This document shows, piece after piece, positions 29,714 to 54,740 of a DNA stretch of 64,000 nt (position 1 is its first letter; every line of letters begins with the position of its first letter). The stretch is from Argopecten irradians (taxonomy: Eukaryota > Mollusca > Bivalvia > Pectinida > Pectinidae). The stretch is taken from contig NC_091137.1 of the NCBI RefSeq assembly GCF_041381155.1, forward strand, positions 20,195,655 through 20,259,654, read 5' to 3'. The position numbers were made by a program, and so were the translations under genes. Under the pieces are notes generated by a model, which worked only from the letters and a program-made list of their open reading frames with translations, was not told the DNA's origin and searched no databases.

Positions 29714-30146
29714 TCAATGATCACCATTTCGATGTTTTTCACGCCCATGTCGATCTCTGTGTCGTTCTTTACTTCGTGATCTTGATCTCCTATCTCGATG
29801 TGAGTGTTTGGAACTCTTTTTAAGGTGTCGTTCTCTACTGTGTGACCGTTTACGCTCGCAACTCCTGGGTCGACTATCTTTATCCTTGGTTCTTTTTTGG
29901 CGGTCACGTTCCCTTTGTAGATCACGTGCAAAGTCACCACTACTTGATTGTCCTGATCTCCTTGGAGGTGAAGGTCGCCTGCCACGTGAACGATAATGAT
30001 CTGGTGAATGTCTGCGATGGTCGGGTGATGATCTGTAGTGAGGTGATCGGCGTCTGTCAGGGGAACGTCTGTGCGGTGACCGTCTGCCAGGAGATCGGCG
30101 TGGAGAACGTCGTGAATATTGTGGAGATGTTCCTTTATCAGGTGAC
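29714..30146 (-). CDS. PRPF38B: PRPF38B exon 6, RS domain and stop
   Basis: Acceptor GTTTAAAG|G; 143 codons then TGA (complement of 29714-29716). Rich in RS/RD/RR steps: SPDKG, SRRSPRRSPGRRSPHRR, DFARDLQRERDRQKR, SCERKRSHSRERH, RDRRSRSRSKERHRDRHG. No frame errors, unlike exons 1-5. RS domains mediate protein-protein contacts during spliceosome assembly and are normally phosphorylated. The longer open frame in another phase over this stretch is a shadow. Confidence 0.9.
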
Positions 30147-33100
30147 CTTTAAACAAAGAGAGTGTAAATTTGATGTCAATAATGAGTGATGAGTGTTGTA
30201 TTTGTATGGGTATCTTTTAGTACTTCGCCTGATAAATTTCCATCTCACAACATATCATCTTACTAGTTTATCAGTAACACACATTACAGATATTTAATTA
30301 TGGTATAAGTAATGTTAATAATACATACATGAAACATTGTATGCTATGAAAGTATGTGGTTTTACACTGTAGCAGGAAAAACATTAATCACTAAACACAT
30401 ATACTGTAAGTAATATATATTAAAAAGAGAAATGAAAAGGAAGATACAAAGTTCATGTCAGATATCATATAGCCTCCCACATTCAGTGAATATGATATCT
30501 ACCTATGTCTATATAAAGTTCCTGATGTTGTTGAACCTCCCACATTCAGTGAACATGATATCTACCTATGTCTATACAAAGTTCCTGATGTATGTGTAAC
30601 CTCCCACATTCAGTGAACATGATATCTACCTATGTCTATACAAAGTTCCTGATGTATGTGTAACCTCCCACATTCAGTGAACATGATATCTACCTATGTC
30701 TATACAAAGTTCCTGATGTATGTGTAACCTCCCACATTCAGTGAACATGATATCTACCTATGTCATACAAAGTCCTGAGGTTTTCCACATCCTACTATGT
30801 CTATACAAAGTTCCTGATGTCGTTTTGCCTCCCACATTCAGTGAACATGATATCTACCTATGTCTATACAAAGTTCCTGATGTCGTTTTGCCTCCCACAT
30901 TCAGTGAACATGATATCTACCTATGTCTATACAAAGTTCCTGATGTGTTTTGAACCTCCCACATTCAGTGAACATGATATCTACCTATGTCTATACAAAG
31001 TTCCTGATGTATGTTGTAACCTCCCACATTCAGTGAACATGATATCTACCTATGTCTATACAAAGTTCCTGATGTATGTTTTGCCTCCCACATTCAGTGA
31101 ACATGATATCTACCTGTGTCTATACAAAGTTCCTGATGTTGTTGAACCTCCCACATTCAGTGAACATGATATCTACCTATGTCTATACAAAGTTCCTGAT
31201 GTTGTTGAACCTCCCACATTCAGTGAACATGATATCTACCTATGTCTATACAAAGTTCCTGATGTTGTTTAACCTCCCACATTCAGTGAACATGATATCT
31301 ACCTATGTCTATACAAAGTTCCTGATGTATGTGTAACCTCCCACATTCAGTGAACATGATATCTACCTATGTCTATACAAAGTTCCTGATGTTGTTGAAC
31401 CTCCCACATTCAGTGAACATGATATCTACCTATGTCTATACAAAGTTCCTGATGTATGTGTAACCTCCCACATTCAGTGAACATGATATCTACCTATGTC
31501 TATACAAAGTTCCTGATGTATGTTTTGCCTCCCACATTCAGTGAACATGATATCTACCTATGTCTATACAAAGTTCCTGATGTATGTGTAACCTCCCACA
31601 TTCAGTGAACATGATATCTACCTATGTCTATACAAAGTTCCTGATGTTGTTGAACCTCCCACATTCAGTGAACATGATATCTACCTATGTCTATACAAAG
31701 TTCCTGATGTATGTGTAACCTCCCACATTCAGTGAACATGATATCTACCTATGTCTATACAAAGTTCCTGATGTATGTTGTAACCTCCCACATTCAGTGA
31801 ACATGATATCTACCTATGTCTATACAAAGTTCCTGATGTATGTGTAACCTCCCACATTCAGTGAACATGATATCTACCTGTGTCTATACAAAGTTCCTGA
31901 TGTATGTGTAACCTCCCACATTCAGTGAACATGATATCTACCTGTGTCTATACAAAGTTCCTGATGTATGTGTAACCTCCCACATTCAGTGAACATGATA
32001 TCTACCTATGTCTATACAAAGTTCCTGATGTATGTGTAACCTCCCACATTCAGTGAACATGATATCTACCTATGTCTATACAAAGTTCCTGATGTATGTG
32101 TAACCTCCCACATTCAGTGAACATGATATCTACCTGTGTCTATACAAAGTTCCTGATGTATGTGTAAACTCCCACATTCAGTGAACATGATATCTACCTG
32201 TGTCTATACAAAGTTCCTGGATGTATGTTGAACCTCCCACATTCAGTGAACATGATATCTACCTGTGTCTATACAAAGTTCCTGATGTATGTGTAACCTC
32301 CCACATTCAGTGAACATGATATCTACCTATGTCTATACAAAGTTCCTGATGTATGTTTGCCTCCCACATTCAGTGAACATGATATCTACCTATGTCTATA
32401 CAAAGTTCCTGATGTTGTTTTGCCTCCCACATTCAGTGAACATGATATCTACCTATGTCTATACAAAGTTCCTGATGTAGTTTGAACCTCCCACATTCAG
32501 TGAACATGATATCTACCTGTGTCTATACAAAGTTCCTGATGTCATGTGTAACTCCCACATTCAGTGAACATGATATCTACCTATGTCTATACAAAGTTCC
32601 TGATGTTGTTTAACCTCCCACATTCAGTGAACATGATATCTACCTATGTCTATACAAAGTTCCTGATGTATGTGTAACCTCCCACATTCAGTGAACATGA
32701 TATCTACCTATGTCTATACAAAGTTCCTGATGTTTTAACCTCCCACATTCAGTGAACATGATATCTACCTATGTCTATACAAAGTTCCTGATGTTGTTAA
32801 CCTCCCACATTCAGTGAACATGATATCTACCTATGTCTATACAAAGTTCCTGATGTTGTTTTGCCTCCCACATTCAGTGAACATGATATCTACCTATGTC
32901 TATACAAAGTTCCTGATGTTGTTGAACCTCCCACATTCAGTGAACATGATATCTACCTATGTCTATACAAAGTTCCTGATGTTGTTGAACCTCCCACATT
33001 CAGTGAACATGATATCTACCTATGTCTATACAAAGTTCCTGATGTTGTTGAACCTCCCACATTCAGTGAACATGATATCTACCTGTGTCTATACAAAGTT

Positions 33101-36100
33101 CCATGTATGTTGAACCTCCCACATTCAGTGAACATGATATCTACCTATGTCTATACAAAGTTCCTGATGTATGTGTAACCTCCCACATTCAGTGAACATG
33201 ATATCTACCTGTGTCTATACAAAGTTCCTGATGTCGTTTAGCCTCCCACATTCAGTGAACATGATATCTACCTATGTCTATACAAAGTTCCTGATGTATG
33301 TGTAACCTCCCACATTCAGTGAACATGATATCTACCTATGTCTATACAAAGTTCCTGATGTTGTTGAACCTCCCACATTCAGTGAACATGATATCTACCT
33401 ATGTCTATACAAAGTTCCTGATGTTGTTGAACCTCCCACATTCAGTGAACATGATATCTACCTATGTCTATACAAAGTTCCTGATGTTGTTGAACCTCCC
33501 ACATTCAGTGAACATGATATCTACCTATGTCTATACAAAGTTCCTGATGTTGTTGAACCTCCCACATTCAGTGAACATGATATCAACCTATGTCTATACA
33601 AAGTTCCTGATGTATGTGTAACCTCCCCCACATTCAGTGAACATGATATCTACCTATGTCTATACAAAGTTCCTGATGTATGTGTAACCTCCCACATTCA
33701 GTGAACATGATATCTACCTATGTCTATACAAAGTTCCTGATGTTGTTGAACCTCCCACATTCAGTGAACATGATATCTACCTATGTCTATACAAAGTTCC
33801 TGATGTCGTTTTGCCTCCCACATTCAGTGAACATGATATCTACCTGTGTCTATACAAAGTTCCTGATGTTGTTTTGAACCTCCCACATTCAGTGAACATG
33901 ATATCTACCTATGTCTATACAAAGTTCCTGATGTATGTTTTGCCTCCCACATTCAGTGAACATGATATCTACCTATGTCTATACAAAGTTCCTGATGTAT
34001 GTGTAAACTCCCACATTCAGTGAACATGATATCTACCTATGTCTATACAAAGTTCCTGATGTATGTGTAACCTCCCACATTCAGTGAACATGATATCTAC
34101 CTATGTCTATACAAAGTTCCTGATGTTGTTTTGCCTCCCACATTCAGTGAACATGATATCTACCTATGTCTATACAAAGTTCCTGATGTATGTGTAACCT
34201 CCCACATTCAGTGAACATGATATCTACCTATGTCTATACAAAGTTCCTGATGTATGTGTAACCTCCCACATTCAGTGAACATGATATCTACCTATGTCTA
34301 TACAAAGTTCCTGATGTTGTTTTGCCTCCCACATTCAGTGAACATGATATCTACCTATGTCTATACAAAGTTCCTGATGTCGTTTTGCCTCCCACATTCA
34401 GTGAACATGATATCTACCTATGTCTATACAAAGTTCCTGATGTTGTTTTGCCTCCCACATTCAGTGAACATGATATCTACCTATGTCTATACAAAGTTCC
34501 TGATGTATGTTTTGCCTCCCACATTCAGTGAACATGATATCTACCTATGTCTATACAAAGTTCCTGATGTCGTTTTGCCTCCCACATTCAGTGAACATGA
34601 TATCTACCTGTGTCTATACAAAGTTCCTGATGTATGTTGTAACCTCCCACATTCAGTGAACATGATATCTACCTATGTCTATACAAAGTTCCTGATGTTG
34701 TTTAACCTCCCACATTCAGTGAACATGATATCTACCTATGTCTATACAAAGTTCCTGATGTATGTTAACCTCCCACATTCAGTGAACATGATATCTACCT
34801 GTGTCTATACAAAGTTCCTGATGTCGTTTTGCCTCCCACATTCAGTGAACATGATATCTACCTATGTCTATACAAAGTTCCTGATGTATGTTTTGCCTCC
34901 CACATTCAGTGAACATGATATCTACCTATGTCTATACAAAGTTCCTGATGTATGTGTAACCTCCCACATTCAGTGAACATGATATCTACCTATGTCTATA
35001 CAAAGTTCCTGATGTATGTGTAACCTCCCACATTCAGTGAACATGATATCTACCTATGTCTATACAAAGTTCCTGATGTATGTGTAACCTCCCACATTCA
35101 GTGAACATGATATCTACCTATGTCTATACAAAGTTCCTGATGTATGTTTAGCCTCCCACATTCAGTGAACATGATATCTACCTATGTCTATACAAAGTTC
35201 CTGATGTTGTTGAACCTCCCACATTCAGTGAACATGATATCTACCTATGTCTATACAAAGTTCCTGATGTATGTGTAACCTCCCACATTCAGTGAACATG
35301 ATATCTACCTATGTCTATACAAAGTTCCTGATGTATGTGTAACCTCCCACATTCAGTGAACATGATATCTACCTATGTCTATACAAAGTTCCTGATGTAT
35401 GTGTAACCTCCCACATTCAGTGAACATGATATCTACCTATGTCTATACAAAAGTTCCTGATGTTGTTGCCTCCCACATTCAGTGAACATGATATCTACCT
35501 ATGTCTATACAAAGTTCCTGATGTATGTTTAACCTCCCACATTCAGTGAACATGATATCTACCTGTGTCTATACAAAGTTCCTGATGTATGTGTAACCTC
35601 CCACATTCAGTGAACATGATATCTACCTATGTCTATACAAAGTTCCTGATGTATGTGTAACCTCCCACATTCAGTGAACATGATATCTACCTGTGTCTAT
35701 ACAAAGTTCCTGATGTCGTTTTGCCTCCCACATTCAGTGAACATGATATCTACCTATGTCTATACAAAGTTCCTGATGTATGTGTAACCTCCCACATTCA
35801 GTGAACATGATATCTACCTATGTCTATACAAAGTTCCTGATGTATGTGTAACCTCCCACATTCAGTGAACATGATATCTACCTATGTCTATACAAAGTTC
35901 CTGATGTCGTTTTGCCTCCCACATTCAGTGAAGATGATATCTACCTATGTCTATACAAAGTTCCTGATGTATGTGTAAACTCCCACATTCAGTGAACATG
36001 ATATCTACCTATGTCTATACAAAGTTCCTGATGTATGTTTAGCCTCCCACATTCAGTGAACATGATATCTACCTATGTCTATACAAAGTTCCTGATGTCG

Positions 36101-39100
36101 TTTTGCCTCCCACATTCAGTGAACATGATATCTACCTATGTCTATACAAAGTTCCTGATGTATGTTTTGCCTCCCACATTCAGTGAACATGATATCTACC
36201 TATGTCTATACAAAGTTCCTGATGTATGTTGAACCTCCCACATTCAGTGAACATGATATCTACCTATGACCTATACAAAGTTCCTGATGTCGTTTTGCCT
36301 CCCACATTCAGTGAACATGATATCTACCTATGTCTATACAAAGTTCCTGATGTATGTTTAACCTCCCACATTCAGTGAACATGATATCTACCTATGTCTA
36401 TACAAAGTTCCTGATGTCGTTTTGCCTCCCACATTCAGTGAACATGATATCTACCTATGTCTATACAAAGTTCCTGATGTCGTTTTGCCTCCCACATTCA
36501 GTGAACATGATATCTACCTATGTCTATACAAAGTTCCTGATGTATGTTTTGAACCTCCCACATTCATTCAGTGAACATGATATCTACCTATGTCTATTAT
36601 CTATAGTTCCTGATCTATACAAAGTTCCTGAGTATGTGTAACCTCCCACATTCAGTGAACATGATATCTACCTGTGTCTATACAAAGTTCCTGTGTCACA
36701 TTACAAAGTTCCTGTGTCTATGTATGTCGTTTTGCCTCCCACATTCAGTGAACATGATATCTACCTATGTCTATACAAAGTTCCTGATGTCGTTTTGCCT
36801 CCCACATTCAGTGAACATGATATCTACCTATGTCTATACAAAGTTCCTGATGTATGTGTAACCTCCCACATTCAGTGAACATGATATCTACCTATGTCTA
36901 TACAAAGTTCCTGATGTCGTTTTGCCTCCCACATTCAGTGAACATGATATCTACCTATGTCTATACAAAGTTCCTGATGTCGTTTGCCTCCCACATTCAG
37001 TGAACATGATATCTACCTATGTCTATACAAAGTTCCTGATGTATGTGTAACCTCCCACATTCAGTGAACATGATATCTACCTATGTCTATACAAAGTTCC
37101 TGATGTATGTTTAGCCTCCCACATTCAGTGAACATGATATCTACCTATGTCTATACAAAGTTCCTGATGTATGTGTAACCTCCCACATTCAGTGAACATG
37201 ATATCTACCTATGTCTATACAAAGTTCCTGATGTCGTTTGCCTCCCACATTCAGTGAACATGATATCTACCTATGTCTATACAAAGTTCCTGATGTTGTT
37301 GAACCTCCCACATTCAGTGAACATGATATCTACCTGTGTCTATACAAAGTTCCTGATGTCGTTTTTGCCTCCCACATTCAGTGACATGATATCTACCTAT
37401 GTCTATACAAAGTTCCTGATGTCGTTGTTTGCCTCCCACATTCAGTGAACATGATTATCTACCTATGTCTATACAAAGTTCCTGATGTCGTTTTGCCTCC
37501 CACATTCAGTGAACATGATATCTACCTACCTATGTCTATACAAAGTTCCTGATGTAATGTTGTAACCTCCCACATTCAGTGAACATGATATCTACCTGTG
37601 TCTATACAAAGTTCCTGATGTATGTGTTAAACTCCCACATTCAGTGAATATGATATCTACCTATGTCTAAACAAAGTTCCTGATGTCGTTTTGCCTCCCA
37701 CATTCAGTGAACATGATATCTACCTATGTCTATACAAAGTTCCTGATGTTATGTGTAACCTCCCACATTCAGTGAACATGATATCTACCTATGTCTATAC
37801 AAAGTTCCTGATGTCGTTTTGCCTCCCACATTCAGTGAACATGATATCTACCTATGTCTATACAAAGTTCCTGATGTCGTTTAGCCTCCCACATTCAGTG
37901 AACATGATATCTACCTGCGCTTGTATGCCATCCTCTCAGCCTCGCCGAAGCTGACCTCCTCGTCTCAGGATATATGTTGTGGTTGATTGGATGCTGCTAT
38001 TGGCTCCTCCTCTGGTTCTGGGCGGGACCAGTTGTGATTCTTCAGTTTCTGCATCAGATCTTTCTGCACCGGTACAGGGATGCGAGGAAACAATGTTGAG
38101 TACCACTCTAGTTTGGTCATCCACTGACGAAATCATTTCTCCGATTGGCATCACATGTCCTCCACCCGGCCTTTAACATCTATTTCCTGTAACGATAGAG
38201 TCGTAAACCAGTAACAATATGAAACCAGGAGACTATTTTAGAGACATGTCAATAGTACGGGTTTGCTCTAGTGTCCCCCTGTGGGCTGAAACATAAGTAA
38301 TTTACTAGGAACATTGGGGCTAGAAATGCAGTAAATTGTCTGATCACCAGAAAGGTCATTAATGTTCTAAATCCATACACATCAATTTGCTAAAGTAGAA
38401 CTCAGTCATATAAAGATGAAATGCTATATCTGTCCAAAAACTGTTTTCCATTTTTATTTTACATATGACATAAATACTTCAATCAGCACTCTGACGTTAT
38501 ATAACATATCATATAACGTTAATAAAGTTAAGTATAACTGGGTTTAACTTTTATCAGCAAAAACAAAACCATTGAGAAGTTTTTTGTCCATTCCCGACTT
38601 ATGTTATGGTTTTATTATTTAATGACCATGCTAATTTGTTGTGAATATAAAGATAAAGATATACTTGCTGTCAAGTTGAAATGACACTCAGCTTATGATA
38701 CATATGAACATCCATTGACAAGAAATTCTTTAACTTAACAAAAAAGAGTTCACTGGGCACAGACAGTAGTTATACCCTTTTTAATGCCGATGTCAGTCAT
38801 TTTGTTATCAAAATATTTCTCCAAATCTTTGCATTTACTTTATTAATTTTATCTTACTAGACTTTGTGTGAAAATGTGTTTCAATTCAAATAAAATTTCC
38901 AAGGATAGTTTTTTTGAATCAAAATATGCCGTATTTAAAAAACCAACCAGAATAATTCCTTTAAGTTTTTTTTAGTAAAAAATTTTGTGTTGCCTGCAGA
39001 AAGAGAAGCATAGGAATGGTGTGTGTGTTATTATAACCTCATGCCAGAGGTCAAAGGTCATTCCACGGAGGAGGCCGACTTGCTATCATGAGACCAGCCC

Positions 39101-42100
39101 TCAGCGGGATCTAGAGCAACACCCTGCAGTAATACAAAACACAGTCTATAGTGATAGTGACAAAATCAACAATATAATCTCAACACAAAATAATGTAATA
39201 ACGTAATATTATCAAATCATGCTTTAACCAAAACTTTGTATTACATTCAAAACATTTAAAAAATTAATATGATCACTAGATCATAACTTATGTTAAAATA
39301 ATTTGTATTTTCAGATTTTAAATATCAAAATAATAACTAATTAAGGAATGAAATTGAATTAGAAGATTAGCAATAGACAGGTGTGAAAACAGTATGTATT
39401 ACTAATAGAAAAACAACATGTTATAAGTATAGTGTTTGCTATACTCACCACTTAACAATGTTAGAGTCCAGTCAGTCAGAGGATCTCCACAGGATGGGGG
39501 AGGGGGAGGGGCACTTCTAATTATTTATGATATCACACACAATTACAAATTGTTTCTTATATATATATATCAATAACACATCTCTAAGCACAATTAAATT
39601 CGTATTAAAAAGTGTTTTCTTTAACTAGAAACAACTGAACCTTCTGTTCTTTTTCTTTAACTGTATTATATCAATCAGATATAGATGGCCTGTGTGAGTA
39701 GCCCGGGGTACAGGGCTTAGTGTTTATTGCAAACATACCTCCTCATCTTCCAGATAGGGTTCATACCAGTCCCATAGCTCCTTAGGGTCCTGTGTGGTAT
39801 CTGTAATGGACATGGTTACAACATAATTAACAGACATGCACTTAAAAAGATGGTAAAATTTGGTTTGTTTGTTTTAGTTTTTACGTCCTATTAACAGCCA
39901 AGATAATGTAAGAATGTGCCAGGTTTTACAATGGAGGAAAACTGGAGTAAACCCTGAGAAAAACCATCGACCAAGTGGTCAGTATCTGGCAATTGCCCCC
40001 ACATAGAATTCGCACTTGCGACTCAGAGGTGGACCACTTGTGGTAATATGTCGGGACATCTTAACCACTTAGGGCATTGCGGTCCCTAGATGGTGAGAAC
40101 CTTAGATTATATACATGTATAATGTGACTTACAAAACTCACAAGGAAGAAGTGTTAAAGCAGTCTATAATTTAAATAGAATATGAAGAATAAAGATTTCA
40201 AAATGATATCAATAAGTTTGGACCTGCTTTTCCTACCTGATATACATAAATCCGAGTCCACGGATAAATGGGGAGTCCTGGTGAGTAATCAATCCAGTGA
40301 GCTGTGTTTCCGTGTCAGTCTCAGTGTGAACAGTTTATACAGTAGACAGTAGGCACTAGAGACAAATCCCCTCCGGCTCCTACACCTCGTACGCTACACA
40401 GGGAGAATGTCACATTGTTTAACACTCTCTCATACTCGTACATACGGGCTCCTACAACCTCGTACCTACACAGGCAGTCACATTGTTAAACACTCTCTCA
40501 TACTCGTAACATACGGCTCCTACACTCGTACCTACACAGACAGATGACACATTGTTAACACTCTCTCATACTCGTACATACAGCTCCTACATCTCGTACC
40601 TACACAGGCAGTCACATTGTTAAACACTCTCTCATACTCGTGACATTACAAACGGCTCCTACCAAAAACCTCGTACCTACACAGGCAGATGGTCACATTG
40701 TTAACACTACTCTCATCTCGAAACATACCACCTACACCTCATACCGTACACAACAGTCACATTGATAAGCACCTCTCTCATACTCACTATACAAACGGCT
40801 CCTACACCTCTACCTACACAGGCAGATGTCACATTGTTAACACTCTCTCATACTCGTACATACACCTACACCTCATACCTACACAGACAGTCACATTGTT
40901 AACACTCTCTCATACTCGTACATACAGCTCCTACACCTCGTACTTACACAGGCAGTCACATTGTTAACACACTCTCATAACTCGTACATTACAGCTCCTA
41001 CAGCCCCTTGTACCTACACAGGCAGTCACATTGTTAACACTCTCTCATACTCGTACATAACGGACGAGCTCCTACACCCTCGTACCTACACAGGCAGTCA
41101 CATTGTTAACACTCTCTCATACTCGTTACAAACAGCTCCTACACCTCGTACCTACACAGGCAGTCACATTGTTAACACTCTCTCATACTCGTGACATACA
41201 GCTCCAACACCTCGTACCTACACAGGCAAATGTCACATTGTTGACACTCTCTCATACACCCGCTACACTTACAACAGCTACCTACACCTTGTACACTACA
41301 CAGGCAGTCACATTGTTAACACTCTCTCATACTCGTACATACGCTCCTACACCTCGTACGCTCTACACAGGCAGTCACATTGTTTAACACTCTCTCATAT
41401 ACTCGTACAAACAGCTCCTACACCTCGTAACCTACACAGGCAGATGGTCACATTGTTAACACTCTCTCATACTCCCTACAAACGGCTCCTACACCTTGTA
41501 CCTACACAGGCAGTCAGAATTGTTAACACTCACTGTCATACTCGAACAAACGGCTTTCTACACCTCGTACCTACACAGGCAGTCACATTGTTAACACTCT
41601 CGTCATACTCGTACATACGGCTCCTACACCTCGTACCATACACAGGCAGTCACATTGTTTAACACTCTCTCATACTCGAACAACAAACGGCTGCCCCCCT
41701 ACACCTCGTACCTACACAGGGCAGATCACATTGTTAACACTCTCTCATACTCGTACAAACGGCTTCCTACCACCTTGTACCTACACAGCAGTCACATTGT
41801 TAACACTCTTCTCATACTCGTACATACACCTACACCTCGTACCTACACAGACAGTCACATTGTAACACTCTCTCATACTCGTACAAACGGCTCCTACACC
41901 TCGTACCTACACAGGCAGTCACATTGTTAACACTCTCTCATACTCGTACATACGGCTTCCTGCCCCCCCCGACAACCCCACACCTCGTACCTACACATGC
42001 AGTCACATTGTTAACACTCTCTCATACTCTTCAACAAACGGCTCCTACACCTTTTGTACCTACACAGGCAGTGACATTGTTAACAACTCTCTCATACTCG

Positions 42101-45100
42101 TACAAACTGGGCTCCTACACCTCGTAACCTACACAGGCAGTCACATTGTTAACACTCTCTCATACTCGTACATACGGCTCCTACACCTCGTAACCTACAC
42201 AGGCATGTCACACATTGGTTAACACTCTCTCATACTCGTGACACAAACCGGCTCCCTACACCTCGTACCTACACATGGAGATTGTCACATTATTAACACT
42301 CTCTCATAACTTCGTACATACGGCTCCTACAACTCGTACCTACACAGGAAGATGTAGTGTTTCCCACAGCCCCGATTAGCATGGCGCCGCGCCGTGCCCT
42401 TTTTACTACCTGACGCCATGCCCCTATAACCTAAACGCCCTGCCCCTGTTTTGTCCTCAGTACACGTTTACTAAACTACCAAAATACCATGCAGCAGTGA
42501 CTTGATAATTAAGTAAACAAAAGAGGTGTGACCACTTCCTGACCCCATGACCAACACCCCAGTGGCCCTATTTAGCAGCCTTGGGCTATTTCCACTTGGC
42601 TTGTGGTGTCACTTTCACGTCTGTGTATTAGGCCTAACAGTTACGTAAAAGCTGAAGTCAAGCAGCCGATCGGCAGCCTAGAAAACAATCAGCTTGCCTT
42701 TCATTAAGTTTTATGACTACAGCTAGTGAGCACTACAACAAAAACAAATACTGCTTTTAACTGTAAATGATTTACTCACGTTTTTAATGTTTAATAGGCA
42801 TAACTATACTGATGAATGTCACAAGCTTTGCAATCGTAATGGCCGCCATTTTGGGTATATTGCAATAGTCGATCCGGATTCAGGATTTACTAATATTCAT
42901 GTTTTTAAAAATGAAAATGGTATATTTTTTTTAGAATTTCGGTGTGAATTTATTTTCGGACAAAATAAATTAATAATAATAAAATAATTAATAGCAAATT
43001 AATTAAAACAAATCAAATTAAAAAGAAATTTACCTTTTTCTCTCTCAGGATAAATTACATTTTGAATACTACTACATTAACAATGATCTGTATTATCTTA
43101 ATTTAGTGCTTGTAAATTTAAGAACATTATTTCAATTTATTATCCATTATTTTGAAACATTAGTAAACTTATTCAATTAAATTATACAGTATTTTTAATA
43201 TTTCAATAAAGATATATAAAATAAAGATAATAGGATTGAAATAAAGGCATTATTCCCAATCTTTAATTAATATAAATGAAATATAGATATTTCTTGTGAA
43301 TCAATTATTGTCATGATCATATGATCGATAGATTCCAATTTCCAAAATCATTATTTTTACCCAGAATAATTAAATAAATGTCCTGATATTACTTAGAAAC
43401 TCAGACAGAATTAAATAAACAAGACATTTTAAAAGATTTTCCCTTGTATTGGAAGTCGTCGATAACTTTTGTGCCCCTCTGATGGTTATTTATCGCGGGT
43501 CAAGGTGCCCTTTTTCAAAACCTAGGCCACCATGCCCTTTTTTTTTTTTCCTGTCGGGCAACACTAAGTTAATTCACTCTCCATTACTTACACTTACGGG
43601 CTCCTACAACCACGTACATACACAGGACCAGATGTCACATTGTTAACACTCACTCTCTCATCACATCTTCGTTTACCACTTACCTACACAGACAGCTCCT
43701 AACACTCATACTCGTACATACCTATACTACACAGGCAGTCACCATTGTTAACACTCTCTCATTCCTCGTAACATACGGCTTCCTACACACTCGTACCTAC
43801 ACAGACAGATTGTCCACATTGTTAAAAAACCACTCTCTCTTACTCGTAACATACGGCCTCCTTACAACCTCGTTACCTACACAGGCAGTTCACATTGTTA
43901 AGCACTCTCTCATTACGTCGTAACATACCGGGTGCTCCTAACACCTCGTACCTACACCAGGACCAGATGGTCCACCATAGTTAAAACACTATCTCATACT
44001 TACGGAGTCCTACACCTAGTCCCTACAAAGGCCGTCCACCATTGTTAACACTCTTATCTCTTATCATACAAAAGGAGACACTGACCCACACAGCAAGTTG
44101 AATCAAATTGACCCAATTTCTATCCCCTATAAACTTATCAAGGAGGACCCAAAGTTTTATCTTCCTGTACCCCACTGTTTTGTATTAAAACACAAATATG
44201 ATATTTATATCCCCAATGCTTAAATCTGTAAGAGTTTTAAATCTTGATATGACAACAAAAGGCACAATCAGGGCACTTACCCAAATATACAGGAAATTTT
44301 GGTTTTTTATTAGTTTTTAACGTTCCTATTAAACAGCCACAGTCCCATGTAAGGACGTGCCAGGTTTGTTGGTGTGAAGGAAGTATTCGCAGAAAAACCA
44401 GGCAACTGCCCCCCATGGGATTCGAACCCGCATGCCAGAGGTGGAGGGCTTGTGGTAATATGTCGGGGGAACATCTTAACCACTTTGCCCAGCAGGGCCC
44501 CCTAAAATATACAGAATTTCATTTTGGGAAGTTGTTTTTTTTAAATGGTTTTGATGTTTGTAGTCCAAAAATAGGAAACAGTAATTTTGTGTTTTTGACT
44601 ACAGGTATATATATGCTTATATTATAAGTTTACATTAGTAAAAAGTGCCACAACACTAACCTAATATACATCTAAATAGAAACTTGAGAAAGCTTTGTGG
44701 CATTATGTCAAACGGTTTTGAAGTTGAAGCCTAGAAAAACATCTTTTGAAACGAATGCACAAAACAAAGCTCAATAATCAGTATCTCAAGAGGGAAGGAT
44801 GGATATATGAACAAATATGTAATGCTACTGTATGTATACATTACCCCGCCACACATTCCAGTTTGCCCAGCTGTTTTTCCGACTTCCTCTTTCCAAAGGT
44901 TCTAAATGTTCTACTACCTGAAACAAAAACAAACAAAAAACATCTTATTTTGTCTTACAGGTTTATCTGTGTAAACTTGAATATAATTGCTTAAGTGGTT
45001 ACAGTGTCAGTATTTACAAAAGTATGACTAAAAAAAATCTTCAAACTGAAGAAAAAAATACCTTTTAACAAAATGAAGATCTTTAGAGAAGAGAAACTGA

Positions 45101-45432
45101 CTTCAGCTTTTTTGATTGTCATATTTAAAATGATAACATAAGCTAATACTGAAATTACACATGTAATGTCAGGATATAGGAAATAAGATGAAGTTGTTGA
45201 ACCTGGTTGTCACAAATCAAAGTATAAATTATACATATACATGCAGAAATCATTCAGTCAAACAGAACTTACTCATGTAGTAAATTTCATCAATAACTTT
45301 CATGATATGTTTTTCAGCTCATACAAGTTGACCTTGAAGTAAGGTGGATGACTGTATATTTGTCAGTATCAGTGGATTCATGTTCATAGGTTTTCTCATT
45401 ACCCCAGAGATTGGTAATGGATTGTTTGGCAT
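29714..45432 (-). CDS. PRPF38B: Pre-mRNA-splicing factor 38B (PRPF38B), six exons
   Basis: The minus-strand exons, in order, are 45432-45273, 44917-44845, 40392-40237, 39800-39739, 38186-37915 and 30146-29714. Diagnostic peptides are NMNPLILTNIQSS, RGSRK and TGMCGG in appropriate frames, ITHQDSPFIRGLGFMYIR, ELWDWYEPYLEDEE, EWYSTLFPRIPVPVQKD, then an RS-rich tail with SRRSPRRSPGRRSP and FARDLQRERDRQKR. This order matches the conserved PRP38 domain plus RS domain of animal PRPF38B, a nuclear spliceosome-associated protein. Splice phases agree where checkable (E3 to E4: AG|A; E5 to E6: AG|G). The first five exons contain several 1-2 bp insertions and one in-frame TGA; their pattern in homopolymers or repeated bases and the noisy flanking DNA suggest sequence error, and the RS exon is clean. 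Introns 2 and 5 are filled with minisatellites that repeat the adjacent splice sites. The start ATG at 45432 is the best seen, but an upstream exon is possible. Confidence 0.85.
30474..37914 (-). repeat. ~63-bp minisatellite (about 118 units) filling PRPF38B intron 5
   Basis: The conserved + strand core is cctcccacattcagtgaaca then tgatatctacctatgtctat and acaaagttcctgatgt, followed by a variable 6-9 base linker (ttgttgaa, atgtgtaa, cgttttg, atgttttg and others); the period is 62-65 bp. Most units from 30.5 to 36.5 kb differ only in the linker and in an A/G at cctatgtc/cctgtgtc; from about 36.55 kb indels become common. On the gene's strand each unit reads ACAYAG|GTAGATATC, the same donor sequence as at the end of exon 5. 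The array makes up about 96% of the intron. Open frames through it are by-products of a period close to 21 codons. Confidence 0.95.
37915..38186 (-). CDS. PRPF38B: PRPF38B exon 5, donor merges into minisatellite
   Basis: Acceptor CGTTACAG. It encodes EIDVKAGG-like residues, HVMPIGEMI, WMTKLEWYSTLFPRIPVPVQ, KDLMQKLKNHNWSRPEPEEE and, beyond an in-frame TGA, DEEVSFGEAERMAYKR, ending GCGCAG|GTAGATATC. The leftover AG plus the G of the next exon gives Arg before SPDKG. Small insertions lie near the exon start and in GATTTCG. The donor sequence continues directly into the 63-bp array. Confidence 0.82.
38187..39738 (-). other. PRPF38B intron 4
   Basis: AT-rich, with no further exon or element recognised. 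Confidence 0.45.
39739..39800 (-). CDS. PRPF38B: PRPF38B exon 4
   Basis: Acceptor CCATTACAG, donor GAGGAG|GTATGT. It encodes YTQDPKELWDWYEPYLEDEE after removing one extra C near the start. Matches the conserved YTQ..LWDWF segment of PRP38-family proteins. Confidence 0.85.
39863..40092 (-). mobile_element. tRNA-derived SINE, copy 1 (PRPF38B intron 3)
   Basis: On the minus strand the head is gggaccgcaatgccctaagtg with an A-box-like gtggttaagatgtcc and a degraded B-box (gtgcgaattct), followed by a body containing ttactccagttttcctccat and a tail tgttaataggacgtaaaaac. Similar in order and sequence to the copy at 44295-44505. Confidence 0.65.
40237..40392 (-). CDS. PRPF38B: PRPF38B exon 3, fused to a minisatellite at its 5' edge
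   Basis: The 5' edge reads CTGTGTAG then GTACGAGGTGTAGGAGCC (VRGVGA), followed by GGAGGG (GG), SAYCLLYKLFTLRLTRK and LTGLITHQDSPFIRGLGFMYI, ending ATATCAG|GTAGG. A few 1-2 bp insertions break the literal frame. The first 18 nt of this exon and its acceptor are the same sequence as the 65-bp array units that fill the preceding intron. Confidence 0.82.
40393..42354 (-). repeat. 65-bp minisatellite (about 30 units) containing the exon 3 acceptor
   Basis: The + strand unit is ctcctacacctcgtaccta, cacaggcagtcacattgtt, aacactctctcatactcgta, catacgg. On the gene's strand each unit runs CTGCCTGTGTAG, GTACGAGGTGTAGGAGCC, GTATGTACGAG. The middle 18 nt are identical to the first 18 nt of exon 3, and the array merges into that exon at 40392. 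Indel noise between units is high. Confidence 0.92.
42355..43566. mobile_element. Possible hAT-like insertion splitting the 65-bp array
   Basis: About 1.2 kb of non-array DNA between two parts of the array. The left end is tagtgtttccc and the right end gggcaacacta, an imperfect ~11-bp inverted repeat resembling hAT termini. Several ccatgccc/gtgcccttt motifs lie near both ends; the interior is AT-rich with no transposase. The target duplication is not resolved, perhaps because of sequence noise. Confidence 0.4.
43585..44060 (-). repeat. Second part of the 65-bp array (about 7 noisy units)
   Basis: Same unit as at 40393-42354 (ggctcctacacctcgtacct..cacattgttaacactctctc) but with many insertions. 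It lies in the same PRPF38B intron, beyond the putative inserted element. Confidence 0.8.
44295..44505 (-). mobile_element. tRNA-derived SINE, copy 2 (PRPF38B intron 2)
   Basis: The minus strand starts ggggccctgctgggcaaagtg, with gtggttaagatgt (A box) and gcgggttcgaatccc (good B box), then tgtaagg-type body and a ttaataggaacgttaaaaac tail. Same orientation as copy 1. Confidence 0.7.
44845..44917 (-). CDS. PRPF38B: PRPF38B exon 2
   Basis: Acceptor TTGTTTCAG, donor GGCGGG|GTAATG. It encodes VEHLEPLERGSRK then TAGQTGMCGG after one extra A in an AAAAA run. The next exon begins VRGVGAGG, continuing the family's CGGVRGVG motif. Confidence 0.8.
45273..45432 (-). CDS. PRPF38B: PRPF38B exon 1 (with small insertions)
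   Basis: It encodes MPNNPLPI, then (across shifts) WGNEKT, MNMNPLILTNIQSS, PYFKVNLYELKTYHE and VIDEIYYM, and ends at a GTAAGT donor. Extra bases relative to the expected frame occur after CCAATC, before the second ATG, within TCATCCACC and in an A run. Each is tiny, and the downstream frame resumes every time. Confidence 0.8.
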
Positions 45433-45439
45433 GGCATTG

Positions 45440-46560
45440 TGTAGTCTCTCACCAATTCTCTTGAAACAAGAAAAACTTTTTTTACCTGTAAAAAAGTACT
45501 TCATGTTCAGTTTCATGTCAGATTGTGAGTACTGTCTGTAGTAGAAGAAATTAAGTGACACTTTTGTGTGCGTAATTTGAAAATTAAGATTTTAAAAAGA
45601 AACAAATGCTTTTTCCAGGTGTACATACAGCATTTGACAAAAGCCAATTGTGCACTTTGGTAATTATACCTTCTTTGTAATCTGAAATGAGTTGAATCAG
45701 TATGTAAAAATTTCAAATAATTTTACTTAAGATGGGACAAGTATAAAATATTTAAACTCTGACTTTTTTATATATTAATCCTTTTTTTCGATATTTGGAA
45801 CAAGTCAAACAATGAAACGCAACAATAGAGATTTTTCATCCAACAAAATTGTTACGATGATTGGTCCCCAAAAGATAGATAGAGAACATATATAACAAAG
45901 GATGATTATGGAATAAGGAATTTACTGATACGTTAGAATGGCTTTATGCCATCTGCATGGTAAATTATTGGTAATAAAACCGACTTTTTTTCCAATTTCA
46001 AATCTGATAATTCCACCGTTTCGTTTTTTACCCGAAGAGCATTATATTGGATCATTTAAGATTTGTGAGTATCGTGTGCTGACTTCGGAAGTATGACCAT
46101 TTACTTATAATGTACAGATAAAATTTAAAGATTTGAAGAAAAGTTTGAAGACTGATATCAAAATATTTTTCAGACATTTAATGTTTTAAAACATCCAAAT
46201 TTTGTTAAGAAAATTAACCTCTATTGGAATTATTCAGGAATTTCAAAGACATATTTGAAAATTACTGTCAAAAATGGACTACAATTTAGCCCCAAATCAG
46301 AATAACTAAAAGAAGAGGTGTTTTTGAGGGAAAGGTTTTATTAAGGATTAATAGATTTGAAATATCTACAGTACCTCTATTGGTCTCAACCAGTTACCAT
46401 GATGTACCAGTTACTGTGGTATTTCTGCTCACTTTGCTCTATCTCTCGCACAATTTTTTTTTTTAGATTTTTTTAGCAGCACAAAAATGAAGGTAGCCAT
46501 GCAAGTGTTTTTCATTCAACAAAAAGAATGTGCCCAGATGGCCAGTTATCGCTCACTTCT
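45440..46560. other. AT-rich DNA upstream of PRPF38B exon 1
   Basis: It would include the 5' UTR or promoter if the ATG at 45432 is the true start. No CpG-rich promoter or upstream coding exon was recognised. Confidence 0.35.
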
Positions 46561-46571
46561 GGATATTTTAA

Positions 46572-46690
46572 TGCCCCCCCCACGCCCCCCCGCCACAGAC
46601 CCCCACCCCCCCCCCCCCCCCCCCTCCGCCCAACCCCCCCCCCGCCCCCCCCCCCCCCCCACCCCCCCCCCCCCACCCAACCACCCCCCG

Positions 46691-46722
<32 letters not shown>

Positions 46723-46852
46723 ACCACCCCCCCCCCCCCCCCCCCACCCCCCCACGCCCCCCCCCCCCCACCACCCCCCCCCCCCCAACCCACCCCTCAC
46801 CCCACCACCCCCCCACCCCCCCACCCCCCAGACCCCCCCCCCCCACCCCCAA
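46572..46852. repeat. Low-complexity C-rich (C)n(A) tract
   Basis: About 280 bp, almost all C with interspersed A on the + strand. The Pro-rich and Gly-rich open frames in several phases are artefacts of composition. Homopolymer lengths here are probably unreliable. Confidence 0.9.
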
Positions 46853-46909
46853 GTAATGTTCTAATACAGGTTCATTGTTATACATTTCATGAAGTGAAGT
46901 TATTTATAT

Positions 46910-48430
46910 CTCACCTCTAAATCCCCTATTGGCCCCACCGCCTTCCTGCCCCCGCAAGGTGGGTCAGAGCCAAAATTTATACAAGTTTCGAGTACTCCTT
47001 TCTTCCAATGATGTTTATTAATGGCCAAATCTTGGGTAGCAAAACCCAAACAAAAACTCAAGGTACAAGAAAGAGCTTTATACGGATTTACCTCTAATTC
47101 CCCTAGTTGGGCCTCTTCCCGACCTGCCCTCAGTGGGGGCCAGAGTCAAAATTTATACGACTTTCTGTTCACCCTTACCCCCCAAGAATGTGTGTAGTTG
47201 CCTAACTTTGCGGTAACAACCAAAGCATTAACTCTATGACAAGTAGCGACTTTAAGAGGATTTACCGTCTATAACACCCTATTGTGGCCCGAGCCCCATC
47301 TCTGCCCCTGGGAGGTCCAGAGCCAAAATTTATACAAGTTCTGTTCCCCCATCCCCAAGGATGTTATGTTGTCCACATTTAGTTACCAATCTCCATTCAA
47401 GAACATCTATGGACAACGTAGACGATTGTTAAAGATTTACCTCTATTTTCCAACTATTAGGGCCCCGCGCCCCTCCCTGCCGCCCGGATGAGACAGATCC
47501 AAATTATCTACAAGTTCTTATACCCGCATTCCCCAAGGTACTGTTTGTGGCCAAATTTTGTGAGGTGTTAGCATTCCAGTCAGAGATCTAATTACAAGTA
47601 GCGATTTAAAGGAATTACATCTATTACCCCTATTGAGTCCAGCCGCCCTCACCTGCCGCGCCCTGGGTGTCAAGAGCCAAAGATCATTATATCAATTTCT
47701 TGTTCCCCTTCCCCCAAGGATGTTTCCCTTGCCAACCATTTTGGTTTAGCAAATCCATGCAGAACTCTAGGATCAAGATAGAGCGATTTATAGGAATTAT
47801 AACCTCTATTAATCCCCTATGTGGTCCGCTCCGATCCTTGCCCACCTGGTGATGGGTCCAGAGCCAAAATTTATAAAAGTTCTGTTCCCCTTCCCCCAAG
47901 GATTGTTACAGCCAAATTTGTAGTTACAGGATCCATGCAGAATTCTATAGACAAAGTAGCAGATTTATACGGATTTACCTTCTATTACCCCTATTGGGGG
48001 GGTCCCGCTCCTCCGTGGCCGCCTAGGGGTACAGAGCCCAAAATTATACAAGGTCTGTTTCCCCTTCCCCCAAGGATGTTTCGTGGTGCCATGTTGGGAT
48101 ACAATGCCCTTCATGAACACTAAGGTCAAGTAAGCGATTTAATAGTATCTTACCTCAATTACCCCTTATTGGGTGGCCCCCGCCCTCCTGCCCCCCCCCT
48201 GGGGGGGGGTCAGTGAGCCAAAAATGATACAAGAGTTCTGATCCCGCTTCCCCAATGAGTATTGTATATCTGGCCAAATTTGGATACAATCCAACCATAA
48301 CACTATGACTATTTACGTTTTAAAAGGAAATGTAGAACGGACGGACGACGGACCGTACGGAACAACGGAACCGACGGACGCCGAGCAATGAACATAAGTC
48401 TCAACTGCCCTTCGGTGCCGGAGTGAAAGC
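46910..48430 (+). mobile_element. Hairpin-ended tandem-repeat element, second family (~175-bp units)
   Basis: About eight noisy units start with acctctaa.ccccctattgg and contain cagagccaaaatttatacaa, gttctgttcccc and ccccaaggatg. They end in aaaaggaaatgtagaacggacgg, further cggac repeats near 48360 and an imperfect hairpin in ataagtctcaactgcccttcggtgccggagtga (about 48389-48426). Layout matches the 155-bp family though the unit sequence is unrelated. Non-coding. Confidence 0.7.
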
Positions 48431-48439
48431 TAAAAATTG

Positions 48440-51400
48440 GTCATTTGTAACCGATATGCTAAACAAATCTATGTTTCCATTTGAAATATCCAGGTTTGCA
48501 AACACTTAAACACACAGCGGGGGATAGCTTGAAATCATTACTTACTACTATGCATAATAATGACAATCATCGTTTTATATTGTTTTGTCCACCAGTTTTT
48601 CCAAAAATCTGTCTGCACTCAAAGTATAGGTCAAAAGTATGCAAAATCATGAGTATACGGCAAGTTACCGCTCAGGCATGATTGGACAAAAGATAGTAAA
48701 ACAGAAGGTAGATTTATAAACCTGGTCAATACTCGTAGTGTTTACTTTTTATTCAAAACAAATGAAATGAATTTATAAATGAATAATATTACTTAATGAA
48801 TTTCTGTAAAGATTTTTATGGTCTATCTACAAAGAACATTTTTTTATTTGTTTTCTATTTTAACTCCTGCCCAGATCTGGACCTCCCTGCATTTAGGTGA
48901 TTTCCCACTATCGAACACATCCATTAGACAGTCCATTTTTTCCGTTACTCTTGTCGAGATCATCCAGTCCACAGTTATTCAAAAATAACCATGCAATAAT
49001 CGAATATATTATCGCTCCCACTTCAAGATATATCAAATATATTTTGGTCACAGGTAATGAAACACAAGAAAAGTTTTTGGTGCAATAATCAACTAATATT
49101 TTGTTGTGTGTCCAGAGTTGGAAATACAAGTTATAATTAGTCTTTATCACACCCACCCCTACATCCCCACTGCCCCCAGACCGCCCAGTCTCCACGGGCG
49201 TCAAATGACTCAGCAGTAAATGAGTCAATTAGTTAAAGGTACTCCGACAACGTATGTGAATTTCCATATGGCATTTGCGGTCATTGGCCCCATGCTGAAT
49301 AGATGTAACAGAGCAGGATGGAGCACAAGTTAACTTTAGTTTGCAAATATACCGAATATATCAACTATAATAGCTATTTAATAGGCTATAGCAAAAATGA
49401 CGATAACTAACATTTTTCTAGAAGATAAAAATTGCTTGCCGCGATCAAAAACCAGAACTTTCTGAAAACTTTGCGAGTGGTTGGTAAATGACCAGACCAA
49501 TACAAACATAATTGAAAGCAAGTTATTGATGAGGTACTATATGTACAGCTAATTAGGTATTTATTGCTCTATGTTTTTTCAGAACGAAAAGTGGTTGCAT
49601 AATTTTCCAAATTATCCTTATACACCATTCCCTGCAAAGTTCTAGGTGTCGGTTTTTTTGTACCACAAGCAGTGTTATCACAATGAAAAAGATGTTTTTT
49701 CGCTAGTTTAGTATAGCTAATAAATAAGTCTATTATAGTCTATATATCGCTATAATAGCATATCATAAGAAGATACATGTTTCCCGGAACCTGACAAGTA
49801 CAATTTGTGGCTGGCCATGTTCTAAACGCCTAATTTATTTAAATTCGACGATTTACATAGTGATGTCAAAAGGTAAAAAAAATTTTGTTTAAACGCGTTT
49901 TGTTACTCAGTTTTTCGTGATTTCGTTGTTTAATCTAAAACTCAATACTTGCACGCTTTCATTGTCAAATTTCGATTTAGAGATTTTGTCAGTGATTCAT
50001 CCATTAACACCCTATTTACAATAGATTACGATCGAGTCGGTACAAATCAGGCGGTTTGGTTACTGGAACACCTTCTGATTCTATTCCTTTACCACATACG
50101 TTGTTATTGTTTTCCTTCTCGCAGCTGGTCCTAGTCTCAATTATTGACTTCCATCAAGTTTCCCCTTCACTTTTCGTTGTTTATTCGTCAGGATAGCCTA
50201 GTGGAAACGTTTTTTTCACACTGAAGTTGGGAAATGCTACCAAACGCGGCTATGAAAGTCAAATATCAAGGGAGACAACTTCGTATGCAAACTCGTCATT
50301 CCGCAAAATGTAACATTTTTTTTTATCATTATTAATTGAAATATTGCGTGACATGGATTATTTTTCATGCATTTTCATTATTTGCAGAAATTTACTATAC
50401 TGTCCACAGAGACCTGGCTAACGATTTTTATTTGGACTACTGTAACATTACTAGTACGTCCAGTCTGATCTAACAGTTAACAGTTACATATATGTCCTGT
50501 CAACACGAGCACCTCCGCAAATTCTGCACAGTCACAAGACTGAAAATAAACGGTTACATCAAGTATTTGAAAGTAACGTTACATCAAGGTCGTATAATAA
50601 GAATGGATAATGTCACAATGGGGTTTTTTTTGGGTGAGTACAAGGCAGGAGCTGATGTGTTTGTTGCACTGACCGTGACGTTGAGCGAACGAACTGATTT
50701 TTCTTCTTTGAGATCCGACGGCTACAGCCTTTTTATGAAGCTTTGCTGTTGCGAGGGATACCTTCTTACTTTTCGAAGCGGGGCCGACAATTTCATGACC
50801 TGTCCCTATATTTTTTAAACGAAAATTATTAAGACATTACTCGAGATAAATATATCGTCCTTAGAAACAAATTTACAAACGTATGTGAAAGTTTGTAATA
50901 ACACTTACATTGTTACCTCCCTTTGTTCAGCTTTTTCATATCAATCTGGTATTACAGTTATCTCCCTCAGTCTGCACATTATGATTGCCAGAACACCCCC
51001 CCCCCCCCCCCCCCCCCAACTGTATGAGATTTTTAAAAATGTATTTTCATTTTTTTTTCATCTCTTGTAAGATTTTTTTTATATAGATAGTCAAAGGACA
51101 TATAATGTTAAGTAATATGTCACCGTCATTATTTCCTTTTTGTAACACATGCATTTTCACATTTTTGTCATTCTGGCTTTATTATCTAAGCTACAGCTAA
51201 TTATTGAAAATTTCCACACTTAAGTGACTAATGATGGTTTATCTGTTATTTGCTTTGACAAAATTTCACAATTTATGCTTATTTACCCAAATCCTAAATT
51301 TCAAGCTATTTTTTTGGTTAGGCTCAATTAAGTGTTTATGAAAGTGAATTAAAAAAAAACCTAACAGACAATTGTGAAAATGCCGTCCTAGATAATTTTC

Positions 51401-51644: not shown

Positions 51645-54600
51645 GTTACACAGACCATTGGTTACCTCAGACTGGTACCACATAACACAGACCTGTGTTT
51701 ACCTCAGACTGGTACCACATAACACAGACCTGTGTTTACCTCAGACTGGTATCACATAACACAGACCAATTGTAACCTCAGACTGGTATCACATAACACA
51801 TATATATGGTTACCTCAGACTGGTATCACATAACACAGACCTGTGGTTACCTCAGACTGGTATCACATAACACAGACCAGTGGTTACCTCAGACTGGTAT
51901 CACATAACACAGACCTGTGGTTACCTCAGACTGGTATCACATAACACAGACCTGTGGTTACCTCAGACCTGTATAACATAACACAGACCTGTGGTTACCT
52001 CAGACCTGTATCACATTACACAGACCAGTGGTTACTTCAGACTGGTATCACATAACACAGATCTGTGGTTACCTCAGACTGGTACCACATAACACAGACA
52101 TGTGGTTACCTCAGACTGGTATCACATAACACAGACCAATGGTTACGTCAGACTGGCACCACATAACACAGACCTGTGGTTACCTCAGACTGGTATCACA
52201 TAACACAGACCTGTGGTTACCTTAGACTGGTATCACATAACACAGACCTGTGGTGACCTCAAACTGGTATCACATAACACAGATCTGTGGTTACCTCAGA
52301 CTGGTATCACATAACACAGACCTTTGTTTACCTCAGACCTGTATCACATAACACAGACCTGTGGTTACCTCAGACTGGTAACACATAACACATATCTATG
52401 GTTACCTCAGACTGATCAAAAACAGCTCAGACTGTATCACATAACACAGACATTGTGGTTACCTCAGACTGGTATCACATAACACAGACCTGTGGTTACC
52501 TCAGACCTGTATCACATAACACAGACCTGTGGTTACCTCAGACTGGTATCACATAACACAGACCTGTGGTTACCTCAGACTGGTATCACATAACACAGAC
52601 CTGTGGTTACCTCAGACTGGTATCACATAACACAGACCTGTGGTTACCTCAGACTGGTATCACATAACACATATCAATGGTTACCTCAGACTGGTATCAC
52701 ATAACACAGACCTGTGGTTACCTCAGACTGGTATCACATAACACAGACCTGTGGTTACCTCAGACTGGTATCACATAACACATATCTATGGTTACCTCAG
52801 ACTGGTATCACATAACACATATCTATGGTTACCTCAGACTGGTATCACATAACACATATCAGTGGATACCTCAGACTGGTATCACATAACACAGACCTGT
52901 GGTTACCTCAGACTGGTATCACATAATACACAGACCTGTGGTTACCTCAGACTGGTATCACATAACACATATCTATGGTTACCTCAGACTGGTATCACAT
53001 AACACATATCTATTGTTACCTCAGACTGGTATCACATAACACATATTTATGGTAACCTTAGACTGGTATCATAAAACACATATATATGGTTACCTCAGAC
53101 TGGTATCACATAACACAGACCTGTGGTTACCTCAGACTGGTATCACATAACACAGACCTGTGGTTACCTCAGACTGGTATCACATAACACAGACCAATTG
53201 TAACCTCAGACTGGTATCACATAACACATATCTATGGTTACCTCAGACTGTATCACATAACACAGACCTGTGGTTACCTCTGACTGGTATCACATAACAC
53301 AGACCAGTGGTTATCTCAGACTGGTATCACATAAACACATGGTTACCTCAGACTGGTATCACATAACACAGACTTTGTTACCTCAGACTGGTATCACATA
53401 ACACAGACCTGTGGTTACCTCAGACTGGTATCACATAACACAACACAGACCTGTGGTTACCTCAGACAGATATCACATAACACAGACCTGTGGTTACCTC
53501 AGACTGGTATCACATAACACAGACCAATGGTTACCTCAGACTGGTATCACATAACACAGATCTATGGTTACCTCAGACTGGTATCACATAACACATATCT
53601 ATGGTTACCTCAGACTGGTATCACATAACACATATCTATGGTAACCTTCAGACTGGTATCACAAAACACATATATATGGTTACCTCAGACTGGTATCACA
53701 TAACACTGAACTGTGGTTACCTCAGACTGGTATCACATAACACAAACCTGTGGTTACCTCAGACTGGTATCACATAACACATATCTATGGTTACCTCAGA
53801 CTGGTATCACATAACACAGACCAGTGGTTACCTCAGACTGGTATCACATAACACAGACCTGTGGTTACCTCAGACTGGTATCACATAATACAGACCTGTG
53901 GTTACCTCAGACTGGTACCACATAACAAAGACCTGTGTTTACCTCAGACTGGTATCACATAACACAGACCTGTGGTTACCTCAGACTGGTATCACATAAC
54001 ACAAACCAGTTGTTACCTCAGACTGGTATCACAACATAGACCTGTGGCAACCTCAGAGTGGTATCACAAAATACAGATCTGTGGTTACCTCAGACTGGTA
54101 TCCCATAATACAGACATGTGGTTACCTCAGACTGGTATCACATAACACAAACCAGTGGTTACCTCAGACTTCTACCACATAATGCAGACCTGTGGTTACC
54201 TTAGACTGGTATCACATAACACAGATCTGTGTTTACCTCAGACTGGTATCACATAACACAGACCTGTGGTTACCTCAGACTGGTATCCCATAATACAGAC
54301 ATGTGGTTACCTCAGACTGGTATCACATAACACAGACCTGTGGTTACCTCAGACTGGTATCACATAACACAGACCTGTGGTTACCTCAGACTGGTATCAC
54401 ATAACACAGACCTGTGGTTACCTCAGACTGGTATCACATAACACAGACCTGTGGTTACCTCAGACTGGTATCACATAACACAGACCTGTGGTTACCTCAG
54501 ACTGGTATCACATAACACAGACCTGTGGTTACCTCAGACTGGTATCACATAACACAGACCTGTGGTTACCTCAGACTGGTATCACATAACACAGACCTGT

Positions 54601-54740
54601 GGTTACCTCAGACTGGTATCACATAACACAGACCTGTGGTTACCTCAGACTAATATCACATAACACAGACCTGTGTTTACTTCAGACTGGTATCACATAA
54701 CACAGACCTATGGTTACCTCAGACTGGTATCACATAACAA
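51645..54740. repeat. 37-bp minisatellite (about 84 units)
   Basis: The + strand unit is ggttacctcagactggta, tcacataacacagacctgt. Variants include acatatctat and acagaccaat linkers. A highly regular block of ~10 units lies at about 54310-54650. On the minus strand units read gtctgag|gtaacc and ccacag|gtctg, resembling splice donors and acceptors, but no exon abuts the array, so this may be chance. Confidence 0.92.

Follow-up and report, generated by a model that had tools for sequence, protein, structure and literature searches.

A minisatellite spanning an exon-intron boundary of a scallop PRPF38B gene, and its probable silence

The window, as we call the 64-kb stretch of Argopecten irradians contig C4 analysed here, carries a PRPF38B gene on its minus strand, and in the intron before the third exon (exon numbers refer to coding exons throughout) lies a tandem array whose unit contains the edge of that exon. 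A second, clean copy of the locus is present on contig C6: a genome search with a 22-mer gave matches in the window and at C6:29835032-29837563. When exons from C4 and C6 are joined, the resulting protein is 94% identical to the PRPF38B-like protein of Pecten maximus over 100% of its length and carries a PRP38 domain (PF03371, E = 3.9e-49), which bears out the gene name given in an initial annotation made from the window's sequence. A search of solved structures returned five weak matches, to PRPF38A and Prp38, which were not used further.

We read the array directly, detected it with Tandem Repeats Finder and counted its units by cyclic alignment to the 65-bp unit. On the minus strand, the array unit consists of the end of the intron, including the acceptor CTGTGTAG, followed by GTACGAGGTGTAGGAGCC, the first 18 nt of the exon, and the last copy passes unbroken into the third coding exon (VRGVGAGGIV...). 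This is the composition that the initial annotation had described, and its estimate of some 37 units was about right, as we counted approximately 36 in the window (28.5 + 7.6). Its placement of the array at 40237..44060 needs qualification: the array is there, but a 1,188-bp element divides it into two blocks, and it lies in a stretch ridden with insertions (Table 1). On C6, CATCT stands on either side of this element. The clean array on that contig (C6:29835032-29837567) consists of 9 + 11 = 20 units, which are followed by the real third coding exon.

The clean units allowed us to follow the splice signals from copy to copy. The acceptor CTGTGTAG is found in 20/20 units, and its copies are 62-68 bp apart, leaving no room for a hidden unit without it. 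The exon edge had also been described as exact in every unit, encoding VRGVGA, and this part did not hold: the 18-mer is exact in 9/20 units, VRGVGA is encoded in 12/20, and an in-frame TGA occurs in 2/20. The donor-like GTATGT, reported to follow many units, does so in 11/20, with the weaker GTTTGT in 6/20 and no GT at all in 3/20. Across the 20 units we counted 34 substitutions, 14 of them CpG transitions (two of which hinge on gap placement), while CpG positions make up 6 of the 65 in the unit. Since CpG transitions are over-represented, the exon copies appear to vary largely through CpG decay. Three of these copies carry an R-to-Q change, three a G-to-V change and two the stop. There is no sign of coding constraint on them (8/20 units do not encode VRGVGA and two contain a stop), although the independent changes are few and the test is weak. 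The idea that the 65-bp unit is itself a dimer of related halves found weak support, as the 10/11 identical positions were reached by 5% of shuffles.

The unit was found at this locus only. When the genome was searched with the 65-bp unit, by a tool that leaves out very common words, 55 matches appeared, all within the two assembled copies of the locus. Apart from the array, nothing in the surrounding 130 kb of C6 (C6:29778000-29907999) comes closer to the 26-mer than 9 mismatches (17/26), compared with 26/26 at the array. Three observations support the proposal that the array is an exon-intron boundary expanded as a tandem repeat: it exists in a clean copy, it passes into the exon unbroken, and its unit was seen nowhere else in the genome as far as the search reached. 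We hypothesize that the boundary was first duplicated locally, at an early stage, and that unequal exchange or slippage would then have expanded the array.

Table 1. Features of the PRPF38B locus, in window coordinates.
Feature	Position	Strand	Details
First coding exon (MPPNNPLPIWGNEKTMN...YYR)	45273..45437	-	156 nt on C6; 9 inserted bases in window
Second coding exon (VEHLEPWERGSRKTAGQTGMCGG)	44845..44914	-	69 nt on C6; 1 inserted base and 1 mismatch in window
Exon-distal array block	43557..44069	-	7.6 units in window (very noisy), 9.2 on C6 (cyclic alignment)
Inserted element	42352..43556	-	15-bp terminal inverted repeats (TAGTGTTTCCCACAG); 1,188 bp on C6; splits array in two
Exon-proximal array block	40374..42351	-	28.5 units of 65 bp in window, 11.5 on C6 (cyclic alignment)
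Third coding exon (VRGVGAGGIV...FMYI)	40237..40392	-	152 nt, C6:29837550-29837701; 4 inserted bases and 1 mismatch in window
Fourth coding exon (YTQDPKELWDW...)	39739..39800	-	61 nt on C6; 1 inserted base in window
Fifth coding exon (EIDVKAGGG...AYKR)	37915..38186	-	266 nt on C6; 6 inserted bases in window
Second array	30444..37916	-	63-64 bp units, about 118 in window, 145.5 on C6; most units end in AG
Sixth and last coding exon, RS-rich tail	29714..30146	-	open frame, error-free in window
Error-rich, insertion-dominated stretch	30444..50600	.	overlaps C6:29830667-29849145; aligned to 50439, by eye to about 50600

The gene has a second array, which was not part of the initial finding. It lies in the intron before the last coding exon and begins right at the donor of exon 5, CAG/GTAGATATC. 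On C6, AG/GTAGATATC is found at 137 places, the exon's own donor counted, mostly 63-64 bp apart. Most units are bounded by AG/GT, and the exon's share of each is about CAG at most. A common origin of the two arrays found no support, as their alignment score was reached by 24% of shuffles. The numbers of units in the second array and in both blocks of the acceptor-side array differ between C4 and C6 (Table 1), reflecting either alleles or assembly collapse.

The two copies of the locus differ in a characteristic way. Over one 2.4-kb unique piece (37917-40370), the window shows 49 insertion events, 13 mismatches and 0 deletions relative to C6, and in four other unique pieces there are 17-104 insertion events, 6-68 mismatches and 2-12 deletion events. 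The five coding exons within the noisy stretch (704 nt on C6) have 21 inserted bases, 2 mismatches and 0 deletions. A comparison repeat pair elsewhere in the genome has 107 mismatches and 6 gap openings. We infer that the errors in the window come from unpolished long reads and that this is no decayed gene copy. In the unique pieces that follow one another between 37917 and 50439, the window has about 21, 14, 47, 72 and 78 insertion events per kb, and in the second array on C6 indels rise from 4/kb near the exon to 63/kb near the far end. Such error density is expected where contig ends overlap. A simple gradient of error does not describe everything, however: neither series is smooth, and in the window's second array the bin closest to the RS exon has 81 per kb, mostly deletions.

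The coding exons that are clean on C6 encode MPPNN...YYR, VEHLE...CGG, VRGVGA...YI, YTQD...EE and EIDVK...KR, whereas the RS-tail exon, which joins the fifth coding exon in frame (KRR/SPDKG), has one match in the genome search, on C4, and no match within 130 kb of C6. As the RS tail is clean on C4 and the other exons are clean on C6, the noisy stretch bridges the halves of the gene. Judged by these exons, this is a single PRPF38B, divided between C4 and C6 by assembly; the most likely cause would be two overlapping contig ends, perhaps from two haplotypes, that were put on different scaffolds. We also considered two gene copies in the window, or a pseudogene, and rejected both: the RS-tail exon has its single genome match on C4, clean PRP38-domain exons were found on no contig but C6, the noisy window giving a single weak match, and insertions account for most of the differences between the copies, unlike those of the mismatch-rich comparison pair.

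Two further observations concern the assembly. The C6-like stretch ends at about 50600, and C4 sequence is joined from there onward without N, possibly by a false join. At 46526-48432, about 1.9 kb is present only in the window copy and is missing from C6; it contains a C-rich tract of 277 nt together with what look by eye like degenerate, GC-rich repeats, each about 160 bp long, and it is either an insertion specific to one allele or sequencing noise.

We next consider what would happen if the units acted as decoys for the splicing machinery. In the clean C6 intron (29834326-29837549), which offers 21 acceptors, the distance from the exon 2 donor is 714 nt to the first decoy and 3,224 nt to the acceptor of the real exon. 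In the computed products, reading through any decoy (20/20) leads to a stop after 76-89 residues, while the true acceptor gives none; a decoy used without a second cut meets a stop within at most 14 codons. Decoy donors with a GT (17/20) match 4-5 of the 9 positions of the donor consensus, compared with 6, 6 and 7 for the donors of exons 1, 2 and 3, and the base just before them is C or T, not G. Exons of 18 nt and introns of 47 nt are, moreover, too short for ordinary splicing. A VRGVGA insertion is absent from all 120 homologues examined (of 1106), which are representatives of 90% clusters with one named scallop among them; all hold GMCGG[VIM]RGVGxGG unrepeated. Together, these features suggest that the decoys are rarely used and that their products decay.

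The reading that we favour, with a probability of roughly 0.78, is that the array is a 'mirage', a minisatellite with a unit that spans an exon-intron boundary, and that its units are silent and removed with the intron. In the pre-mRNA, the second coding exon would be joined to the last acceptor, which would be chosen because it is the sole acceptor with a full-length exon (152 nt) and a donor behind it. Each decoy, with its 18 nt and weak donor, would be too small for definition as an exon, and any transcripts that arise from decoy use would be removed by nonsense-mediated decay. The array would thus be mostly silent baggage amid many minisatellites. Several points weigh against this reading. 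The silence is deduced from the sequence. The acceptor octamer is unchanged in 20/20 units, a possible hint of selection, although not a significant one (P = 0.07). As the homologues are cluster representatives with one named scallop, they could conceal isoforms of the gene. Assembly collapse may account for part of the difference in unit number, and two boundary arrays in one gene exceed the rough chance estimate (about 0.2 expected). Finally, the paper on the lancelet globin mirages notes that AG/GT copies could serve as cryptic sites (PMC3087553).

The initial annotation had gone further, seeing in each unit a potential in-frame micro-exon and in the intron a series of competing acceptors. 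Were some units spliced in, each would add VRGVGA to the glycine-rich stretch of PRPF38B, and the 18-nt insert would preserve the frame; VRGVGA is free of stops in 12/20 clean units, and GT lies right behind the 18 nt in 17/20. We found no positive evidence for such use. The stops, the lost donors, the C or T at position -1 with its poor consensus matches, the lengths of exon and intron, the lack of coding constraint and the homologues without the insertion all speak against it, and micro-exon function is thus unlikely, to the point that we would be surprised to see it confirmed. A different role would be that of a bank of poison acceptors, used under inefficient splicing or at high PRPF38B levels, so that the transcript is degraded and a feedback loop is closed. 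The early stop from every decoy and the intact acceptor of every unit fit this idea, as does the nature of the product, an RS-tailed splicing factor of the PRP38 family, and feedback through poison exons operates in SR-protein genes. The invariance of the acceptor is not significant, however, and regular splicing is reported for lancelet mirages in the available text of both papers that describe them (PMC3087553, PMC3902484). We hold this role to be possible, with the odds clearly against it. Somewhat more doubtful is a version that includes both arrays, where two opposite banks of decoys (20-36 acceptors and 118-145 donor-like units) would act as a brake or feedback on PRPF38B output that varies with array length and is set by the number of units. 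As both arrays read GT...AG/GT...AG, a wrong cut would either rebuild a donor, giving recursive, self-correcting splicing, or meet a stop and lead to decay; a self-correcting role is possible in this sense.

Two other readings question the array itself. The array, or the window's copy of the gene, might not be real as drawn, given that the copy is dominated by insertions (49, against 13 mismatches and 0 deletions, in 37917-40370), contains 1.9 kb that C6 lacks and shares the clean exons of the gene with another contig. C6 nevertheless holds a clean, in-frame copy with the array included; what is faulty is the quality of the bases and their placement, while the array is sound, and we give an artefact very little credence. 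Alternatively, an ordinary dispersed satellite might lie beside the exon and resemble it by chance or convergence, in a region where tandem repeats abound (34 arrays in 130 kb). This is already contradicted by the confinement of the unit to the locus, by the gap between 26/26 identity here and 17/26 at best elsewhere in the 130 kb, and by the unbroken passage of the array into the exon; of all the readings we find it the hardest to credit.

Arrays of this kind have precedents. The name 'mirage' was given to tandem repeats of exon-intron boundaries in lancelet Adh3, and a later paper describes mirages in lancelet globin genes, at the acceptor in BflGb6 and at the donor in BflGb9, with 6 and 3 BflGb6 units in its two haplotypes and with regular splicing suggested by RT-PCR (PMC3087553). 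TnC is a further case, similar duplications occur in PGBD5, and regular splicing is again reported in the text available to us (PMC3902484). The scallop acceptor array has the anatomical features of a mirage that we tested. Within what these sources describe, the likeness extends to a unit that holds intron and exon sequence of one boundary, AG/GT in many units (acceptor 20/20, GT 17/20) and a similar unit length (10-72 bp in lancelet Adh3, 65 bp in the scallop). Acceptor-side and donor-side cases both occur in the lancelet, and the second scallop array, with at most about CAG from the exon in its unit, is a candidate for the donor side. Unit number differs between haplotypes in the lancelet and between assembled copies in the scallop. 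The scallop acceptor array is also confined to its gene, without a dispersed family, and has the real exon as its last copy. The differences are that the gene is from a mollusc, that acceptor and donor arrays occur in one gene, and that regular splicing is a prediction here; by comparison with the lancelet mirages as far as the available text describes them, unit numbers are also larger (20-36 and 118-145, against 6 and 3 in BflGb6) and a transposon-like element sits inside the array. We found no mollusc mirage among the matches listed in searches of the open-licence literature. The scallop array therefore joins a known, little-described kind of repeat, in a phylum that is new to it as far as those searches show. 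That precedent, like the errors in the stretch and the split of the gene by assembly, was out of the initial annotation's sight.

Two other systems invite comparison. Intron gain through tandem duplication of AGGT segments was reportedly described by Rogers in 1989 and by Gao and Lynch in 2009, both cited in PMC3087553. There, as in the scallop, the duplicated segment contains AG/GT, so that the copies carry their own splice signals; that process makes a new intron, however, while the scallop arrays sit inside introns. The poison exons of splicing-factor genes, through which SR-protein genes regulate themselves, are single conserved exons with shown use. PRPF38B resembles these in being a splicing-factor gene with splice sites whose use would lead to decay, but its array is a variable repeat and its decoys are only predicted. 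No paper joining PRPF38B, a poison exon and nonsense-mediated decay was found in the open-licence literature.

If our reading is right, mirages exist beyond lancelets, in at least one mollusc, where the units are numerous and a single gene has them at an acceptor as well as at a donor. The locus would then be a natural experiment, in which about 20 near-identical acceptors that differ mainly in their downstream sequence precede one exon. Such a series can separate exon definition from models in which the first or the last AG is chosen. It would also show how much duplication of splice sites a splicing-factor gene tolerates, and the array may be raw material for new introns and micro-exons.

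How unusual such arrays are depends on the neighbourhood, which is rich in minisatellites on both contigs. Arrays with a period of at least 20 and at least 3 copies, the locus included, cover 57.6 of the 130 kb of C6 (44%) and 17.0 of the 64 kb of the window (27%). From this density we put the chance that any one splice junction is covered by a 65-bp seed at about 1.7%, or about 0.2 per gene of ten junctions; two boundary arrays in one gene would thus be unusual, but not astonishing. In a survey of kinase loci (the best 30 of 142 matches), an array with a period of at least 10 overlapped the match in 0/30, and a tract with a 12-bp period lay within 80 bp in 1/30; the survey is weak because many kinase matches are long exons. 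The genome has another PRP38-family gene, presumably PRPF38A, and none of its 4 loci showed an overlapping array. Elsewhere in the window, a dispersed 155-bp tandem satellite occurs in both orientations at 10145-11127, 16085-16906 and 24835-26134, and also at C6:29889451-29890886, and an array of 37-bp units with more than 80 copies occupies 51648-54739.

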